Virus record (IMG/VR): IMGVR_UViG_3300010885_029960 | Coordinates: 1-29,768 of that record | Source of the DNA: a virus | Reading direction: 5' to 3' (one strand) | Length of the DNA stretch: 29,768 bases | Shown here: positions 5,883-29,768 of the stretch, in pieces | Numbering within the stretch: position 1 is the stretch's first letter | Layout: each line of letters opens with the position of its first letter | The notes under the pieces: generated by a model | Databases searched by the model: none | What the model saw: the letters and a program-made list of their open reading frames with translations, nothing else | What the model was told of the DNA's origin: nothing | Made by a program: the position numbers and the translations under genes

Positions 5883-7094
5883 ATGGTCACAAGAGCTTTC
5901 CGGCTTGACTCGGAGTTGCCGGGGAACATCGAACGCACGCCGCAAGGGGGAGCAATCATTCCCGCGATGCTCACCCGTTCGGGAGTGGTTTCCTACGTTC
6001 AACCCGACGGCTCAACCGTCCGGGAGTGGAGGCCATGGGAAGAGGTCTCCGCGCCCGAAAGCCTCGCGACCCTGGACGGGGCTCCGGTGTGTCTGGAGCA
6101 TCCGGGGCTTGTGACCAACTCCAACTTTCGGGAGCACACTCGCGGCCACGTAGTCAACGGCTCCGTGGGGCCGCAAGAGCCCTTCGCATCCGGCAAGCTC
6201 TGGATTCAAGACGCGGAGCTTCTGGACGATGTTGCATCGAACCGTCGGGTTGAGTTGAGCCCCGGGTATAATTGCAGCGTGGAGAAGTCCAGCGGGGTAA
6301 CCCCCGACGGGGAACCTTACGACGCAATCCAGCGCAAGATTAGGTACAACCACGTTGCGGTTACTCGGAAGGGGAAGCAAGGGCCGGAGGTATCCCTCCG
6401 TCTTGACTCGGAGGGTAACCTTGCGTCACAATCCAGCGGGGCCAACGCGCCCGAAAGGCAGTTTCAGACCATGAAAACGGTAATGATTGGCGGTGTTGCG
6501 TACATCGTCGGAGGCACGGAGGCCGATAACGCGGCGCTTCTCGCGGCCCTCGCGCGTGAGGCTACGCGGTTCGATTCGCTGGCCTCGGAGCGTGCGACGC
6601 GAGAGGCCGAACTCAAGTCGCAAGCTCTCGCGGCAACGGCGCGCGCGGAGGCCGCGGAGAAGAACCTTCAAGCCGCGCTTCGGTACGACGCAACGGATAC
6701 GGAGGTTCTCGCGAAAGCGGCCTCCATCCTCGGAGCGGATTACAAGGCCGAAGGCAAGACCTCCGGCGAAGTGATGCGCGATTGCGTCGCGAAAGCGTAC
6801 CCCGAACTCTCCATGGAGGGGAAGTCGGAGGATTACGTTTCGGGGTTGTTCGATGCAATCGAGGTTGAAACCGGGGAGGATGTTCCCTCCATGGACGGTG
6901 CTCCCCCGGCCGCAACCGACGACTCGAAAGAGCCCCCGGCCCGCATGGACTCGCATCCGAGCGTGGCCCGTGTGAACCTCGCTTCGGCCCTCCCCGGCAA
7001 GCCCCCGGCTCCCGCGCGGCCGGAGCTCTCCGCAACGGAGCAACTCCGTCAAGACTCCCTCGCGCGGGGCCGCGCGCCTCTCCGGGGGAACTAG
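5883..7094 (+). CDS. DUF2213 protein: probable prohead protease/scaffold
   Basis: A 403-residue protein from the ATG at 5883; a longer frame begins at 5823 inside the previous gene and is rejected. The N-terminal 180 residues match the DUF2213 pattern: an early LTRSGVVSYV segment, ESLATLDGAPVCLEHPG, RRVELSPGYNC, and IRYNHVAVTRKGKQGPEV. Proteins of this family precede DUF2184 capsid genes and are thought to mature the prohead; the residue pair in VELSPGY and the His in NHVAV are plausible catalytic positions (inference). Residues about 225-290 are Ala/Glu/Arg-rich and likely coiled coil, fitting a scaffold. The C-terminal part is Pro/Ala-rich. It is followed by the cement and capsid genes. Confidence 0.8.
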   Translation: MVTRAFRLDSELPGNIERTPQGGAIIPAMLTRSGVVSYVQPDGSTVREWRPWEEVSAPESLATLDGAPVCLEHPGLVTNSNFREHTRGHVVNGSVGPQEPFASGKLWIQDAELLDDVASNRRVELSPGYNCSVEKSSGVTPDGEPYDAIQRKIRYNHVAVTRKGKQGPEVSLRLDSEGNLASQSSGANAPERQFQTMKTVMIGGVAYIVGGTEADNAALLAALAREATRFDSLASERATREAELKSQALAATARAEAAEKNLQAALRYDATDTEVLAKAASILGADYKAEGKTSGEVMRDCVAKAYPELSMEGKSEDYVSGLFDAIEVETGEDVPSMDGAPPAATDDSKEPPARMDSHPSVARVNLASALPGKPPAPARPELSATEQLRQDSLARGRAPLRGN

Positions 7095-23718: not shown

Positions 23719-25677
23719 TCAACCTTCTTTCGCGAGGCCGGTAGCCTCATCCCACTCCCACGGAATCAGACACCCTTTGAAGGGGCCACTTTGCGCGATC
23801 TTGATATCGGCGGATTTGGTCCAGCGTTTGGCCATCAACGCGGGTTCGGCGGAGATACCGGCCTCAAGCTCCGGCATCCAACGCGCGGCGGTTTGAACCA
23901 TGATCCGAGAGACCTCCCAACCCGCAAGCGTGGCCCGCGCGGGTTCGGCCGGAACCTCAAGTAAGAACTCATCATGTACGAAGTTCCAAACACGGCAACC
24001 GTACAGGGGAGAGCCGGTTTCCACGTAGCACGCGCGAGCGATTCGGAACCCGGCCTCTTTCGCGATATCAGCCGCGAGCCCTTGGAAGAATGAGTTAGCA
24101 ACCTCGCAATACCCCACTCCGCCGCGGTATCGGTTAGACAACAGGTGTTGAATGCGGGTCGTATCGTTGCCGTCCAGAAGCCGGTTGACCAGTGCGAAAT
24201 AGGGTTTGGCTTCTGGCCAGTTGGTGAGCCACTGTTGACGGAGTGTGGTTGCCTCATCAAGCGAGAGGATCACACCATATTCCGCGCGCGCTTGGGCCAC
24301 AAACCGCTTTACGCCCATGCCTCCGGGGTAACCGAAGTTGGCAATCTTTGCGGTTTGCCGAAACTTGCTCTTGAAGAAATCTTTTCGCTCCGGCCCTTGC
24401 GAGCCGTGAATAAGAGCGGTTGCGGTGAGGTAGTCAATTCCGGCCATACCGGCCGCAAGATCCGTGTGCGGGTCTTTGCCGGAATTAAGAACCTCCATCA
24501 ATCGGGACTCTCCAAGCAACTTGAAACAGACGAAAGCCCACGCACGGAGTTCCATTCCGGTGTAGTCACACGAAAGGAACCAGCAACCCGGCCGCGGTTC
24601 AAAACACTCTTTCGGCCCCTCTTTGCGGGCCGTGTTTTGCAACTGGTAACCATACGCCGCGGGGAGGCCAGTTGCACCCGGCCGCGGGTCACCCTGCGAA
24701 CAACTTGTGCGTCCAGTGCCTTGAAGACACGTAAAACGGGGCTGGATAGGGTATCGGTCGCCGAACCGGAGCCGTTCAATCCGACTCAACACGGTTTTCG
24801 CGGCCCCGTATTTCTGGAACTTCGTTAAAAGATCATGGCCGGTGAGGCCGATTGCATCCTCCGAGAGTTCCGGCTTTCCCCCGGCCGTTGTCGGAAGGGT
24901 GATATCAGCATCCGAACACGCTTGCTCCATGAGCCGTTGTGCGGCCTCCATGTTGCGAACTCCGTTCGGTCGCACCAACCCGGCCGCGGTCAACTCGGCG
25001 CGGTATGCGTCCAGCCGTGCGCGCTCCAACTGGTAATAACGCTCAACCTCTTTGGCGTTGGTATGCACTCCCCATGCTGAAACCAACTTGAGCCAAAAGT
25101 CCGCGGCCGATTGCCTGGACTCATCCTCCAAGGCATCCGGTGCGATACCCCGCGCGCGGGCCGATTGGGCTTCGTGCAAGGCATATTGCACGGCAACATC
25201 CCCGCGCGCGTAGTCCAGTGCCTCCCGGGGCCATTGAGCCACGGGGGTTGCTCGGAGCTCCCAATACCTCAACCTCCACGGGTTGGCCTTGGATACCGGG
25301 GGAAGTCCGTTGTAACGGTATGCGACGGATTCCAGGTCATACGTTTTGTGGCGTGAACCCTCCGCAATGTCCAAGAGTTGTTCCCGGATGATTGAACACG
25401 TAATCCGGCCCTCTTCATAGGCCGCGAAAACCAGCGGGGTAAGCTCTGGCCAGTTGGCGCACACAACCGACATATCAAACGCGGTGTTGTGGCCAGTGAT
25501 GAGGTACGGCCCCTCAAGCACCGTGGCCAGAAAGTCGCGCGTGCGCTGGTTCTCAAGTTGAGCGTGTTCGATGCCGGTTCCGCGCGAGGTTCTCCACTGG
25601 ACGCAAACACACGGGGGAGCCTGGACTCCCGGCTCAATCAACTTGGTTTCAGTGTCCAGCGAAAGAAGTTCGATCAT
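23719..25677 (-). CDS. DNA polymerase, family A
   Basis: A 652-residue replicative polymerase with a 3'-5' exonuclease domain and a polymerase domain, but without a 5'-3' exonuclease. Exonuclease motifs are LSLDTE (Asp8, Glu10), GHNTAFD (Asn64, Asp68) and YARGD (Tyr156, Asp160). Polymerase motifs are TGRTSCS near 321, motif A DYTGMELR (Asp371, Glu376, Arg378), motif B with Arg440, Lys444 and Phe448, and motif C VHDE (567-570). Motif B continues GYPGGMG, so the usual O-helix Tyr (E. coli Tyr766) is Gly452. The ATG at 25677 is only two bases after a tRNA-like element and has no clear ribosome site. Confidence 0.93.
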   Translation of the reverse strand: MIELLSLDTETKLIEPGVQAPPCVCVQWRTSRGTGIEHAQLENQRTRDFLATVLEGPYLITGHNTAFDMSVVCANWPELTPLVFAAYEEGRITCSIIREQLLDIAEGSRHKTYDLESVAYRYNGLPPVSKANPWRLRYWELRATPVAQWPREALDYARGDVAVQYALHEAQSARARGIAPDALEDESRQSAADFWLKLVSAWGVHTNAKEVERYYQLERARLDAYRAELTAAGLVRPNGVRNMEAAQRLMEQACSDADITLPTTAGGKPELSEDAIGLTGHDLLTKFQKYGAAKTVLSRIERLRFGDRYPIQPRFTCLQGTGRTSCSQGDPRPGATGLPAAYGYQLQNTARKEGPKECFEPRPGCWFLSCDYTGMELRAWAFVCFKLLGESRLMEVLNSGKDPHTDLAAGMAGIDYLTATALIHGSQGPERKDFFKSKFRQTAKIANFGYPGGMGVKRFVAQARAEYGVILSLDEATTLRQQWLTNWPEAKPYFALVNRLLDGNDTTRIQHLLSNRYRGGVGYCEVANSFFQGLAADIAKEAGFRIARACYVETGSPLYGCRVWNFVHDEFLLEVPAEPARATLAGWEVSRIMVQTAARWMPELEAGISAEPALMAKRWTKSADIKIAQSGPFKGCLIPWEWDEATGLAKEG

Positions 25678-25679
25678 AG

Positions 25680-25731
25680 TGCGCGGCGGAGGGCTTGAAC
25701 CTCCCGAACCCCTCCCGGTGAGGGTCCGCGC
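25680..25731 (-). ncRNA. Two-armed tRNA-like element before polymerase gene
   Basis: Reading on the minus strand from 25731, GCGCGGA pairs with GCCGCGC (25687-25681) over six bases, with one A/G mismatch at the seventh. A T-arm-like hairpin of five base pairs with loop TTCAAGC lies at 25704-25688. A second five-pair hairpin CCCTC / GAGGG with a five-base loop occupies 25724-25710. A single A follows the acceptor-like stem. The 52-base length leaves no room for both D and anticodon arms, so it is a tRNA remnant or a tRNA mimic rather than a working tRNA. It ends two bases before the polymerase ATG. Confidence 0.5.
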
Positions 25732-25743
25732 TACCGGAGGCCG

Positions 25744-26718
25744 TTAGTAACGGTGAGTCGTACCCGTTGCCGTGTCGTAATAGGCCGTGGGCGCATCCTC
25801 CGACGGCCCCGCGAACCACCAACCGGGGAACTTGACCGAATGGAACCAGCCCGCTTGACCCTCAACCGGCCGGGGGCCGGAGGGGGCCGCGGGAGCCGGG
25901 GGAGGCGCGGCCGGGGCCGGAGGGGCCATCACCGGAGCCGGAGGCGCGGAAGGGGCCGCCGGAGCGGCCGGAGGGGCCATCGCAGGGGCCGGAGGCATCA
26001 TGGGCGCGGCCGGGGGAGCCATGGGCCGAACTGCGATGCTTGCCGAACCAGCCCCGGGGAGGTTCGGTTGAGCCGGAGGGAGCCCCCAACCGGGGGCCGT
26101 GGTGAGGGGAGCGGCCATCGCAGGGGCCGGAGCGGCCATCGCAGGGGCCGGAGCGGCCGAACCCGGCTCCGCGGCCACGGGGGTAACTTCGGGCCACTCG
26201 AAACCCGATTGACGCGCGAGGGCCGGGGTTGCCGCGCTCCACTCATGGCGGGTGAATTTGAAGCCGGAGCCCTTCGCGGTACGTTCTTCCGCGCGCACGA
26301 ACACCCGAATACCGGCATACGGGTTGGCCGGTTGCGGAGGGTTCCCCACGGTAGCCTCGAAAGCGCGTTGGATGAGGGCCGCGAGCGTTCCCCCGTCAAC
26401 CACGCGCGAAACGGGGTTGGTGAAATCGTCTTGAGACTTCCCTTCACATGCCGCACAGAACTGGACCAGTTCCCGCGTAGAGGCTTCGGGGCTCTTTTCG
26501 AGTTTCGGAACGGAAGAGAACTTTTGCCCCGCGAGAGGGCCGGAGACTACTCGCATTTCGATGATGAATGCCGCACCCGAACGCGCTCCCGCGGCCCCCG
26601 GCCGGGTAGAGATAACCTCTACCAAGTGGAGGCCGTCCGGGAGACGCCGCGAGGTTGCGTTGAGAATGTTCGGGTTGTTCGCGAGAAGCCCATAGATACC
26701 TTGTGCGCCGGTTCCCAT
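25744..26718 (-). CDS. Putative ssDNA-binding-like replication protein with Pro/Ala linker
   Basis: A 324-residue protein from ATG 26718; an upstream ATG at 26871 would enter the helicase gene and is rejected. Residues 1-165 look like a globular beta-rich domain (YGLLANNPNIL, DGLHLVEVISTRPG, AFIIEMRVVSGPLAGQKFSS, then helical EKSPEASTRELVQFC, and GIRVFVRAEERTAKGSGFKFTRHEW). This arrangement resembles OB-fold single-strand-binding-like proteins of phage replication modules, but I cannot name a family. Residues 175-290 are a Pro/Ala/Met low-complexity linker with an exact 21-base tandem repeat in the DNA (26111-26152). The last 35 residues form an aromatic-rich module, FHSVKFPGWWFAGPSED then AYYDTATGTTHRY. 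Confidence 0.6.
   Translation of the reverse strand: MGTGAQGIYGLLANNPNILNATSRRLPDGLHLVEVISTRPGAAGARSGAAFIIEMRVVSGPLAGQKFSSVPKLEKSPEASTRELVQFCAACEGKSQDDFTNPVSRVVDGGTLAALIQRAFEATVGNPPQPANPYAGIRVFVRAEERTAKGSGFKFTRHEWSAATPALARQSGFEWPEVTPVAAEPGSAAPAPAMAAPAPAMAAPLTTAPGWGLPPAQPNLPGAGSASIAVRPMAPPAAPMMPPAPAMAPPAAPAAPSAPPAPVMAPPAPAAPPPAPAAPSGPRPVEGQAGWFHSVKFPGWWFAGPSEDAPTAYYDTATGTTHRY
26111..26152. repeat. Tandem 21-base repeat, two copies
   Basis: Two exact in-frame copies (26111-26131 and 26132-26152) in the Pro/Ala linker of the ssDNA-binding-like gene. A related part-copy occurs near 25975-25992. Confidence 0.75.
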
Positions 26719-26791
26719 TGTGTTGAATCGCTTTCGTTCGATGTTCCGTGTTCGGGACCAACCCCGGGGCCGTGTGCTCCGAGGTCTCTTC

Positions 26792-26822
26792 ACGCTACGC
26801 CGCAAAGGGGCTGGCGTGTCAA
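26792..26822 (-). promoter_or_regulatory. Putative promoter for the ssDNA-binding-like gene
   Basis: On the minus strand a perfect -35 box TTGACA (26822-26817) is followed after 19 bases by TAGCGT (26797-26792), a TANNNT -10 box. It lies in the 109-base gap after the helicase gene and would give a leader of about 70 bases. The spacer is longer than usual. Confidence 0.45.
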
Positions 26823-26827
26823 GTCTT

Positions 26828-28702
26828 TTACTTGGACCAGCGCGCGCCGCGCCTATCGTCCAAGTCTTCAAGATCGGGCATATCCATTGCGGCCATGGAA
26901 ATCTTTTGCGGGATACCCGTTGTCGCTTCGGTGTATTCGCAATCCCGAACCGTTTTCCAAAACGTGTTCACATGCTCCCAACAATTCAGCATGAACTCAA
27001 CCCGGACTTCCGCGGAGTTCTGGCCTTGCCGGTGCGTTCTTCCGAGCAATTGCTCCAGTTTCGCACCCGTGAACGGGGGAGCCGTAATCAGGTTTCTATC
27101 CCAACCTTGGAGGTTGCGGCCGGTTCCGTTCGCGGCCATGGAAGCCACGAAGGGAGTACCCGGGGAGTGGTCTTCAATCCGCTGGCCTTGAGCCGTCTTA
27201 CCTTGCTCACCGTAGAAGGGAACCCGCGCGAGCCGGGAGACGTAGCCTCCAAAACTTTCTTGCTCCGTCCAGACAATCCCCGTCGGGTTATCGCGGAGCC
27301 AACGTTGACAGTACCGCGCCGCGAGGTCTGAAATCCAACACGGCTCCGTCACTGGAACGAACTTCGGTTGCTCTGCGCGCCAAAGGGTGAGGGTTGCTTC
27401 TCCATCGGCCCATGCGGGAAACGACTTCGTTTTGATCCCATGGACTACCTGCAATTCGGTATCCATGTGGTGTGAATGCTTGAGAGTGGACCGAACGAAC
27501 TTGCTCCATGCCTTGCGCGCTTCACGCCATGCTTCCGGGGGCTGTTGCGTCCAGCGATAGTAAAAGCCCAACGCCAACTCCCTTGCGTGTCGCGAGAGTT
27601 CCAAGGCATCCGTCATCATTTGACCATCCGGCAACTCCCACTCATCACGAAACCGCTCCCAATGCTTATCGCATCCGTCCAGGCTTCCGAGCGGATAGAC
27701 CTCCGTATCCAACTCGGAGAGGATGAGAGAGGTTGCGTTGGTCGTATGAAGGGCCACAACCCCGCGGGTTTCAGAGAACCTCCGACGGTACAGCGAACGC
27801 GCGGCGCGCACCCTATCGTCTCCGACGGCGGAGGTAATGGTGAGCAACTCACCCGGGGTTGTGGCCAGCGTTCGCAGAGCTCCCGGGAGAACCCTTCGGC
27901 CTTGTGAGGGCTTCTCATCAATCGCGTTGGCCCATGGCGCACAATCAACCCACGCGCGAGGGAGGGGGCTCGTGTGCCGGAGAGCCCAACCGATAAGAAG
28001 GTAATAATCCAGAATCGACCGCTTTGTAATGGTGCCGGAGAGGCCAACGAACATGGCCCCCGGGTTCTCATCCATGTATCGCCGGAGCCTCCGAGTAACC
28101 GCGGCGCGCGGGTTTCTCAGGTGTTGGCATTCATCGGTCACAACCAAGTCCGGTTGATAGTCGCGCAGAAGGTCTTTCGCGTTGATGCTTGCCAACCTCT
28201 GGTAACTTTCGATTCGGTATGATTGCGGCGGAGTACCGTACAACCGGGTTGAGAGGTCTTGGAAGTCTCTCCGGGTCTTCTCTTTGAGGGCCGCGGGAAT
28301 GAGTAACAGGGGCCGTTTTGCCTGGAGCATCGTCGGAGCAAGGTAGGTAATTGCGGTCTTACCCTCTCCGACGGGGATAGGGCCGAACAACCCGCGCGCC
28401 TCGGAGAGCTCCGAAAGCGCCCAAGCCTGGACCGGACGGAGGGTGAACCGTTGCGCGTGGCCCCTCGGAAACCGGGAGAAAAGATCGGTGAAAGCCTCGC
28501 AAAACTCCGTGCATTCGAGGGAATCCACTCCCCCGGGCGGATGTTGCGGCCTCCGGGGAAGGGCCGCGATTCGCTGGAGCTCCAGCGAATCAGGAACCTC
28601 CGGGAGAGTGAGGGGCTTCGGGATTGACTTCGCAATGCGCGCCGCAAAGTCAATACCCGAAAGGGCCGGGTGCAACTGGTTTACGAAGGTCTCTTCACTC
28701 AT
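26828..28702 (-). CDS. SF2 DNA helicase/translocase (SNF2-like)
   Basis: A 624-residue helicase. The N-terminal 85 residues are variable; a Q-motif-like TLRPVQAWAL lies at 87-96. Motif I is PVGEGKT (110-116), motif II is DECQ (190-193) in place of DEAH, motif III is LSGT (221-224), and motif VI is LLGRTHRQGQ near residue 565, close to the SNF2/Swi2 QTxDRxxRxGQ type. Such proteins act in phage replication or recombination. The ATG at 28702 follows the end of the tRNA-Gln by three bases, with no ribosome site between. The acidic C-terminus (DMPDLEDLDDRR) is variable in this family. Confidence 0.88.
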   Translation of the reverse strand: MSEETFVNQLHPALSGIDFAARIAKSIPKPLTLPEVPDSLELQRIAALPRRPQHPPGGVDSLECTEFCEAFTDLFSRFPRGHAQRFTLRPVQAWALSELSEARGLFGPIPVGEGKTAITYLAPTMLQAKRPLLLIPAALKEKTRRDFQDLSTRLYGTPPQSYRIESYQRLASINAKDLLRDYQPDLVVTDECQHLRNPRAAVTRRLRRYMDENPGAMFVGLSGTITKRSILDYYLLIGWALRHTSPLPRAWVDCAPWANAIDEKPSQGRRVLPGALRTLATTPGELLTITSAVGDDRVRAARSLYRRRFSETRGVVALHTTNATSLILSELDTEVYPLGSLDGCDKHWERFRDEWELPDGQMMTDALELSRHARELALGFYYRWTQQPPEAWREARKAWSKFVRSTLKHSHHMDTELQVVHGIKTKSFPAWADGEATLTLWRAEQPKFVPVTEPCWISDLAARYCQRWLRDNPTGIVWTEQESFGGYVSRLARVPFYGEQGKTAQGQRIEDHSPGTPFVASMAANGTGRNLQGWDRNLITAPPFTGAKLEQLLGRTHRQGQNSAEVRVEFMLNCWEHVNTFWKTVRDCEYTEATTGIPQKISMAAMDMPDLEDLDDRRGARWSK

Positions 28703-28705
28703 GGG

Positions 28706-28776
28706 TTCCCCCGGTAGGGATCGAACCTACACGGCCGGAGTCAAAGTCCGGTGTTCTGCCATTGAACTACGGGGGA
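28706..28776 (-). tRNA. tRNA-Gln (anticodon UUG)
   Basis: A complete 71-base cloverleaf on the minus strand. The acceptor stem TCCCCCG / CGGGGGA pairs over all seven bases with a U1-A72 pair, as is usual for tRNA-Gln. The D stem is GTTC / GAAC, the anticodon stem CCGGA / TCCGG with loop CTTTGAC (anticodon TTG), and the T stem GTAGG / CCTAC with loop TTCGATC. The discriminator is A. The CCA end is not encoded (CCCAT follows). It decodes CAA, which the phage prefers for Gln. The tRNA lies three bases before the helicase start. Confidence 0.95.
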
Positions 28777-28783
28777 GGGGTTC

Positions 28784-28820
28784 GGGGCCATGTTGCACGT
28801 GCAACGTTTCACACGGCCCC
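28784..28820. promoter_or_regulatory. Nested perfect palindromes
   Basis: A perfect 14-base palindrome GTTGCACGTGCAAC (28792-28805) lies within an outer pair GGGGCC (28784-28789) / GGCCCC (28815-28820). It stands between the tRNA and the end of the next gene. It may be an operator, or, as RNA, a hairpin marking the tRNA transcript or ending it; there is no T-run on either side. Confidence 0.5.
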
Positions 28821-28830
28821 GGGTTAGGTT

Positions 28831-29768
28831 CTAGAAGCCGCGAATCACGCGCGAGGCCATGGCGCGGAGGGTGTCCAGGCAGTCACGGCCCGCGGGGGTG
28901 TTGGCGTCGATGGTCACGAAAGCCCCGGCTCCGAGGGCCGGAGCGTTGGCCGTGAGCCACTCGGAAAGGGCCGCGTTGACCAGCGGGAGCCCACGGCCGA
29001 AGGGAACGGCCCCGTACGACTCGAAACGGCCCTTCGTACCGTTGTCCAGGGTGATATCCGTTCCGGCGATGCGCGCTTGAAGCATGGGGAGGATGTCCCG
29101 GGCGAAGTCGGTTGCGCCTCCATCGCTCACGGTTCCGTTGATGACCAGAACGAAGCCCATGCGCGCCGCGGGGTTGCTGGTCTTGGATGCCTTGGGCGCC
29201 GCGGGAGCGGCCTCCGCCGCGGGAGCGGCCGGAGCGGCCGGGGCCGTGGGCGCCGCGGGAGCGGCGGCCGGGGCCGTGGGCGCCGCGGGAGCGGCCGGAG
29301 CGGCCGGGGCCGTGGGCGCCGCGGGAGCGGCCGGAGCGGCCGGGGCCGTGGGCTCCGTGGGTTCGGCCGGGGCAACCTCCGCCGCGGGGGTGAAGGGGGC
29401 CATGGTCGCGTTGTAGATGCTCTGCGCGCCCTTCGCGGCTTCGGCCTTCTCCCATGCCGCGAACTGGTCCAGGCTCCAGCCCCATGCGGTCATGGCGCGG
29501 AGCTTCGCAACCCCCGGCTTCCGGCCGCTCCGGTTCGCGGGGATGAGGCCGCGCGACACGAGCCCTTCATAAAGGGTCTTCTGTTCCGAATCCGCGGCCC
29601 CGCTGGCCTCGGAGGGAGCCGGAGCGGCCGGAGCGGCCGGAGCGGCCGGAGCGGCCGGAGCGGCCGGAGCGGCCGGAGCGGCCGGGGCCGTGGGCGCCGC
29701 GGGAGCGGCCGGAGCGGCCGGGGCCGCGGGAGCGGCGGGAGCGGCGGGAGCGGCGGGAGCGGCGGGAG
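28831..29768 (-). CDS. Two-domain Pro/Ala-linked hypothetical protein (runs off right edge)
   Basis: The frame is open from the window edge to a stop at 28831, so the N-terminus is missing; a GTG at 29559 is internal. From the edge the order is an (Ala-Ala-Pro)-rich block, a 60-residue folded segment (KTLYEGLVSRGLIPANRSG, then AMTAWGWSLDQFAAWEKAEA), a second Pro/Ala/Thr block of about 65 residues, and a C-terminal domain of about 110 residues (GFVLVINGTVSDGGATDFARDILP, later GAFVTIDANTPAGRDCLDTLRAM). I do not recognise either domain. The DNA of the linkers is built from 9-base repeats and may vary in length between isolates. Confidence 0.75.
   Translation of the reverse strand, partial: PAAPAAPAAPAAPAAPAAPAAPAAPTAPAAPAAPAAPAAPAAPAAPAAPAPSEASGAADSEQKTLYEGLVSRGLIPANRSGRKPGVAKLRAMTAWGWSLDQFAAWEKAEAAKGAQSIYNATMAPFTPAAEVAPAEPTEPTAPAAPAAPAAPTAPAAPAAPAAPTAPAAAPAAPTAPAAPAAPAAEAAPAAPKASKTSNPAARMGFVLVINGTVSDGGATDFARDILPMLQARIAGTDITLDNGTKGRFESYGAVPFGRGLPLVNAALSEWLTANAPALGAGAFVTIDANTPAGRDCLDTLRAMASRVIRGF
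29621..29683. repeat. Tandem 9-base repeat, seven copies
   Basis: GGAGCGGCC is repeated seven times without change, encoding Ala-Ala-Pro units on the minus strand. A related repeat (GGGAGCGGC) runs from 29728 to the window edge with four full copies. Such tracts change length easily by slippage. Confidence 0.9.

Follow-up and report, generated by a model that had tools for sequence, protein, structure and literature searches.

Introduction

In plant mitochondria, cleavage of tRNA-like t-elements by RNase P and RNase Z sets mRNA ends, and the t-elements are not aminoacylated (PMC11658184, PMC4919922). RNase P substrates are also known from phages, namely the phi80-type M3 RNA, the C4 antisense RNA of P1/P7 and the T4 gene 32 mRNA (PMC11143913). 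For the Microbacterium phages of cluster EA, PMC7302621 reports one tRNA-Ala in subclusters EA2 (except Eleri), EA3, EA4, EA5 and EA8. No direct report of phage tRNA punctuation or of phage t-elements was found in the open-licence literature, which is weak evidence of novelty. Here we describe a viral DNA of 29,768 nt (IMG/VR record IMGVR_UViG_3300010885_029960, positions 1 to 29,768; the whole stretch is called the window below) in which a 52-nt tRNA-like element lies directly before a family A DNA polymerase gene and a tRNA-Gln lies directly before a helicase gene. We put the probability at roughly one half that the 52-nt element is a phage t-element, at which RNase P/RNase Z punctuation between replication genes would divide the mRNA of the upstream gene from that of the polymerase.

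Results

A tRNA-like element ends two nucleotides before the polymerase gene

The element occupies positions 25680-25731 of the minus strand. It consists of a 6-bp acceptor stem (GCGCGG at 25731-25726 with CCGCGC at 25686-25681), a single A, a 5-bp middle arm with a 5-nt loop (CCCTC, ACCGG and GAGGG, 25724-25710), the stretch GTTCG, a 5-bp T arm (GGAGG and CCTCC, 25704-25688) closed by the canonical TTCRANN-type loop TTCAAGC, a single G and a discriminator A at 25680. The spacer CT (25678-25679) follows, and then the polymerase ATG at 25677. The predicted fold is a three-way junction of -27.4 kcal/mol with no D arm. The first-pass annotation of this DNA had placed a 52-base tRNA-like element 2 nt before this ATG, and both the sequence and the fold bear this out.

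The energy of the fold was unexceptional, with a z of -1.64 for the element and of 0.0 for the gap as a whole; a z of only -1.64 was rejected as proof of the element. The top half of a tRNA, defined here as the T-arm letters with a 5-bp T stem and an adjoining acceptor of 6-7 bp, appeared twice in 200,000 dinucleotide-preserving shuffles of the 66-nt gap, and at 0.05 occurrences per 201 kb of shuffled genomes. The element is not a canonical tRNA: it lacks a D arm, its middle arm has a 5-nt loop, and the covariance-model folding of 25680-25731 that had been suggested as a check gave no match to Rfam RF00005 even at an E value of 10. Default ARAGORN made no call on it, and mitochondrial-type tRNA models, which were also tried, made none. 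A tRNA with an intron, as searched by ARAGORN, was plausible for only one relative, contig L044. As in t-elements, an acceptor and T arm of tRNA type lay at a gene junction both in the window and, with covariation, in relatives. The polymerase start has the weakest Shine-Dalgarno (SD) pairing among the approximately 30 starts of the window (+0.3 kcal/mol).

Such elements recur before the polymerase in Microbacterium phages

The polymerase of Microbacterium phages is about 25% identical to that of the window, and the order helicase, small gene, element, polymerase is shared. An element was present in all ten Microbacterium phages first examined and in 24 of 26 related contigs with the polymerase start in view, where L118-L120 and L131 were recognized by eye and the others by script. 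Whole-genome scans of Eleri, Etna and Mercedes returned one match each, on the coding strand in the gap before the polymerase. In 262 kb of Microbacterium-type loci, all 17 strict motif matches fell in this gap. The control loci (230 kb) were polymerase loci of other phages, which replaced an earlier random 16-mer control that had given just 5 small loci; they contained one match, an anticodon-less tRNA-like RNA of Gordonia phage Archimedes. This unannotated RNA (L116:5878-5943) has a D arm, a T arm and an acceptor with no anticodon stem, and lies 34 nt before gene 49.

The gap of Etna matched 125 cultured phage records, and no tRNA was among the annotated features in the 60 of these records that were listed. 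Other elements are annotated or scored as tRNAs: tRNA-Ser in Sansa, tRNA-Thr in Finny and tRNA-Ala in YuuY.

The paired regions covary

Because homology alone, without recourse to pairing, suffices to align Ilzatvirus elements of one type, they offer a fair test of covariation. Ten such elements with 87% mean column identity were analyzed with RNAalifold, which gave an acceptor, a 4-bp D-like arm, a 7-bp arm with a long loop and a T arm. Pairing was kept in 220 of 220 pair cells, 8 pairs were changed on both sides, and there were 23 compensatory cells compared to 6.3 in shuffles; sliding the pairing partners abolished the signal. The 27 top halves from distant phages covaried as well (92 cells compared to 21), in a set that was partly chosen by pairing, and the presence of the acceptor partner in Microbacterium-type gaps gave a combined p of 7e-9, uncorrected for relatedness. 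This covariation shows that the fold is functional. In the Ilzatvirus alignment (A7, columns 16-20 and 38-42), the D-like loop contains ACACC and the long loop of the middle arm the complementary GGTGT. The two might form a pseudoknot; Endor and MonChoix have lost one of its end pairs.

The top half is constant and the lower half is exchanged

The acceptor and T arm were intact throughout, with a lower half that was aberrant and hypervariable. The stretch from the acceptor 5' strand to the T stem ranged from approximately 26 to 117 nt, mostly 35-62 nt, and the anticodon arms had loops of 5, 6 or about 15 nt or were absent. Default ARAGORN called 9 of the 27 distinct gaps, some with odd anticodons. 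Kinship to tRNA genes was seen in 6 of 12 Microbacterium-phage loci, which RF00005 fitted at 37-49 bits; the window element was unmatched. CCA was absent from the DNA of most elements; in t-elements it is attached post-transcriptionally. A constant acceptor and T arm beside an aberrant anticodon region suggests selection on the half that is used by processing enzymes.

Finny and Saratos are 98% identical over the first 900 nt of the polymerase gene and identical at 53 of 53 and 83 of 87 positions beside the element; their element bodies, of 67 and 124 nt, are unrelated. In Ilzatvirus, one type of element is found in Hamlet, Peppino and Leafus and another in Etna and others, between the same flanks. 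These findings show that near-identical phages swap unrelated versions of the element as cassettes.

Spacing, hairpins and leaders

The spacing of 2-3 nt was seen only in the window. In the other phages 24-231 nt lay between the end of the element and the polymerase start, and the Elerivirus element was followed by an AGGAG SD, so that neither near-zero spacing nor leaderless mRNA holds as a rule across phages. Downstream of the element, the Elerivirus leaders (L105, L107-L112) share a conserved stretch, GCGGATTNGTCTCCGT..GACTCC...GGAGTCCACC. Its GACTCC is able to base-pair with the SD of the polymerase gene, and the stretch may be an autoregulatory operator.

Each of the 21 Microbacterium-type gaps tested had a GC-rich hairpin, lacking a U-run, directly before the element. 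The counterpart of this hairpin in the window is a strong one at 28783-28821 on the minus strand (-27.1 kcal/mol, z -5.16), likewise without a U-run, just upstream of the tRNA-Gln. Such a hairpin could protect an RNase P-generated 3' end or could be a weak terminator. The window junctions were also considered as terminators, a reading that was rejected because there was no terminator-like site at either of them and no U-run after the 21 Microbacterium-type hairpins, and as promoters, which was rejected for want of sites. No sigma-70-like promoter was found in 22.0-29.8 kb, which includes both junctions, and a suitably placed TANNNT occurred at just 4 of 28 window starts, with neither the polymerase nor the helicase among them. 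Leaderless promoters, which had been predicted as a second route to leaderless mRNAs, thus found no support at these two genes, and the helicase has an SD.

The tRNA-Gln and the helicase junction

A tRNA-Gln with the anticodon UUG was called by ARAGORN at 28704-28776 and matched RF00005 at 28706-28776, both on the minus strand, with 68.2 bits compared to a cut-off of 29. It is a canonical cloverleaf with a 7-nt anticodon loop and no encoded CCA. The acceptor 3' side reads CGGGGGA-A-CCC-ATG, with the discriminator A at 28706 and the CCC spacer at 28705-28703, and this agrees with the original placement of the tRNA, 3 nt upstream of the helicase ATG (28702). The same annotation had stated that neither gene has a ribosome site, which holds for the polymerase and fails for the helicase: GGGGGAA, within the acceptor 3' strand (28706-28712, minus strand), is an SD of -8.6 kcal/mol, the second strongest of the window starts. 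The folded tRNA-Gln would hide this SD, and trimming of the tRNA would remove it.

Glutamine codons of the window are CAA in 219 cases and CAG in 61, opposite to the GC-rich trend of the phage. Because this preference matches tRNA-Gln(UUG), the tRNA is probably a working one that must be matured, and its 3'-end maturation would have to cut the transcript 3 nt before the helicase, a cut expected from established tRNA biology. This junction had no counterpart in relatives; in contig L048 a tRNA-Gln precedes a different gene, with 38 nt and an SD between them.

Relatives of the window

Relatives of the polymerase and helicase were gathered from viral contigs. About 6 of 80 (the window, L048, L036, L044, L018 and L069) had a tRNA or tRNA-like element before the polymerase, and many others had plain hairpins in this gap. 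L048, which is among the closest relatives, carries an element of similar shape at 6916-6963, with a 5-bp arm, a 5-nt loop and the T loop TTCGACT. It ends about 34 nt before the ATG, and the tRNA-Gln(UUG) of this contig is at another, upstream junction. Neither single-protein scans nor a GTDB scan found close relatives of the window, and a closer search around the relatives of L048 returned L048 itself alone. The comparison of this junction in relatives, which the annotation had proposed, showed that the class of element recurs before the polymerase and that the 2-3 nt spacing does not.

Three contigs showed further structures. In L010, a 108-nt tRNA-like RNA (6693-6800; MW202816 14149-14256) starts right after the helicase stop, and the hypothetical protein UOF82299.1 (14141-14284) that overlaps it is probably not a gene. 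Downstream of the helicase in L019 (9490-9660), two T-arm elements are apparently nested, the inner with the acceptor GCGCGG/CCGCGC as in the window element and the outer with CGTCGGC/GTCGACG. In L022, upstream of 6986, a long and perfect inverted repeat around a loop of some 50 nt fills the gap before the polymerase; it has no T arm.

Gene context in the window

Along the minus strand, an Ala-rich gene is followed by a hairpin, the tRNA-Gln, the helicase, a gene of unknown function, the tRNA-like element and the polymerase. The polymerase gene (23719-25677; PF00476, PF01612, phrog_17) includes a 3'-5' exonuclease domain, and the helicase gene (26828-28702; phrog_62, 2e-13) is of the SNF2/DEAD type; alignment with relatives backs both start codons. 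The open reading frame between them (25744-26718) occupies the place of the small helicase-polymerase gene of relatives. It is SSB-like by position only and had no family match in protein family searches. The end of the window (28831-29768) is a long Ala/Pro-type repeat of GGAGCGGCC units, within which the contig probably breaks.

Discussion

RNase P, RNase Z and the CCA-adding enzyme recognize the acceptor/T-arm half of a tRNA. The element keeps the acceptor stem, the T arm and the A discriminator, the part that tRNA-maturation enzymes would read, and does not keep the decoding half. From this we infer cleavage, its enzymes and its benefit as follows. The element would be transcribed inside the replication operon. 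Host RNase P would cut its 5' side, and RNase Z or an equivalent 3' route would cut after the discriminator, this route being assumed because CCA is usually not encoded. The cuts would part the polymerase mRNA from the upstream gene's mRNA, at whose end a strong hairpin often stands, and the benefit may be independent stability or dosage of the two. In the window they would leave 5'-CU-AUG for the polymerase and, after the genuine tRNA-Gln, 5'-CCC-AUG for the helicase, near-leaderless ends that would be a special case of this window. In mycobacteria, the best-studied leaderless host, leaderless initiation is most efficient when the message begins directly with the start codon (PMC4633059). Leaders of 2-3 nt therefore do not amount to truly leaderless starts there, and they may be less efficient. 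The initial idea of tRNA punctuation thus stands in that tRNAs and tRNA-like RNAs adjoin replication genes, recur and covary, for which punctuation is the most economical reading; its close spacing does not hold generally, and its leaderless promoters find no support.

Several observations weigh against punctuation. The window element has no preceding hairpin and, as it has no close homologue, its own pairs have had no covariation test. Relatives that keep the genes and lack the fold had been named as evidence that would speak against the idea, and these exist in part: L128 and L129 lack the element with the genes retained, which makes it dispensable, and most distant relatives of the window have none before the polymerase. 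Nor would processing alone lead one to expect near-identical phages to exchange whole bodies. This exchange keeps alive the reading that the tRNA-like RNA, once excised, works in trans (as a decoy, in anti-defence or as a regulator), with its lower half under diversifying selection. The exchangeable bodies of Finny and Saratos and those within Ilzatvirus hamlet fit such a role, as do stable cloverleaf-like folds with extra arms. It has no known partner, and a cis role is suggested by the hairpin upstream and by the constant place before the polymerase; we regard the trans reading as distinctly unlikely. It is possible, and we hold this tentatively, that both aspects combine, in that a widespread and so far unrecognized class of phage tRNA-like cassettes punctuates replication operons via host tRNA enzymes and that an arms race (anti-defence or phage competition) drives the swapping of bodies.

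The elements could instead be ordinary phage tRNA genes and their decaying relics at an insertion-tolerant gap, with mRNA cutting a functionless by-product. The tRNA annotations and scores of Sansa, Finny, YuuY and half of the 12 loci, the match of the tRNA-Gln to the CAA bias and the absence of the element from L128 and L129 are as expected from this. However, relics would lose the acceptor and T stems first or equally, and in elements that lack a usable anticodon arm all pairs are preserved through compensatory changes; Eleri, Etna and Mercedes also have a single element each, and its place is always before the polymerase. We consider relics rather unlikely. A further reading is that the likeness to tRNA is superficial and that the element serves polymerase expression or DNA replication in cis, for example as a translational operator or as a hairpin at an origin. 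This would account for the adjoining polymerase and for the Elerivirus GACTCC...GGAGTCC that can hide the SD, but the conserved TTCRA letters of the T loop and the A discriminator are tRNA-specific and superfluous in a plain hairpin, and the distance of elements from the start reaches 231 nt, which makes this reading highly improbable. The least probable reading is that the window element is a chance fold of GC-rich sequence. Its z values, the lack of an Rfam score and of a close homologue would suit chance, whereas the rarity of the motif in shuffles and the position shared with the elements of L048, L036, L044 and the Microbacterium phages would not.

If RNase P/RNase Z punctuation is correct, phages have the host's tRNA-maturation enzymes cut their mRNA between replication genes as a built-in device, and the cultured, easily infected Microbacterium phages make this a testable system. 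It would account for 'tRNA' annotations that are odd or absent in a large cluster of phages, and it poses an evolutionary puzzle in an RNA that is half constant, half hypervariable and swapped as a cassette between almost identical genomes.

Compared to known systems, the closest likeness is to plant-mitochondrial t-elements (Forner et al. 2007, cited in PMC11658184; PMC4919922), which are tRNA-like structures at gene ends that keep the acceptor and T arm and usually have no encoded CCA. In the phage elements the lower half is far more variable and is exchanged as cassettes, and cleavage is predicted. Mitochondrial tRNA punctuation resembles the window in that a real tRNA lies 3 nt from a gene start; there, however, tRNAs abut most genes, whereas the window has two such junctions only, one with a non-canonical element and the other with the helicase SD inside the tRNA, and its relatives have normal leaders of 24-231 nt. 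The mascRNA-type elements of MALAT1 and MEN-beta (PMC4919922) are also tRNA-like RNAs cut by RNase P and RNase Z that set an RNA end, but they belong to eukaryotic nuclear long RNAs and do not lie between operon genes. The M3, C4 and T4 gene 32 substrates show that host RNase P acts on phage non-tRNA transcripts (PMC11143913); unlike the present elements, they are not canonical T-arm elements at a conserved gene junction. Finally, the single tRNA-Ala reported in EA subclusters means that the locus is already partly annotated; in the portion of that report available (PMC7302621), its hypervariable tRNA-like nature and its exchange are not recognized and none is reported for Eleri or the large EA1 group, both of which carry the element in the present analysis.

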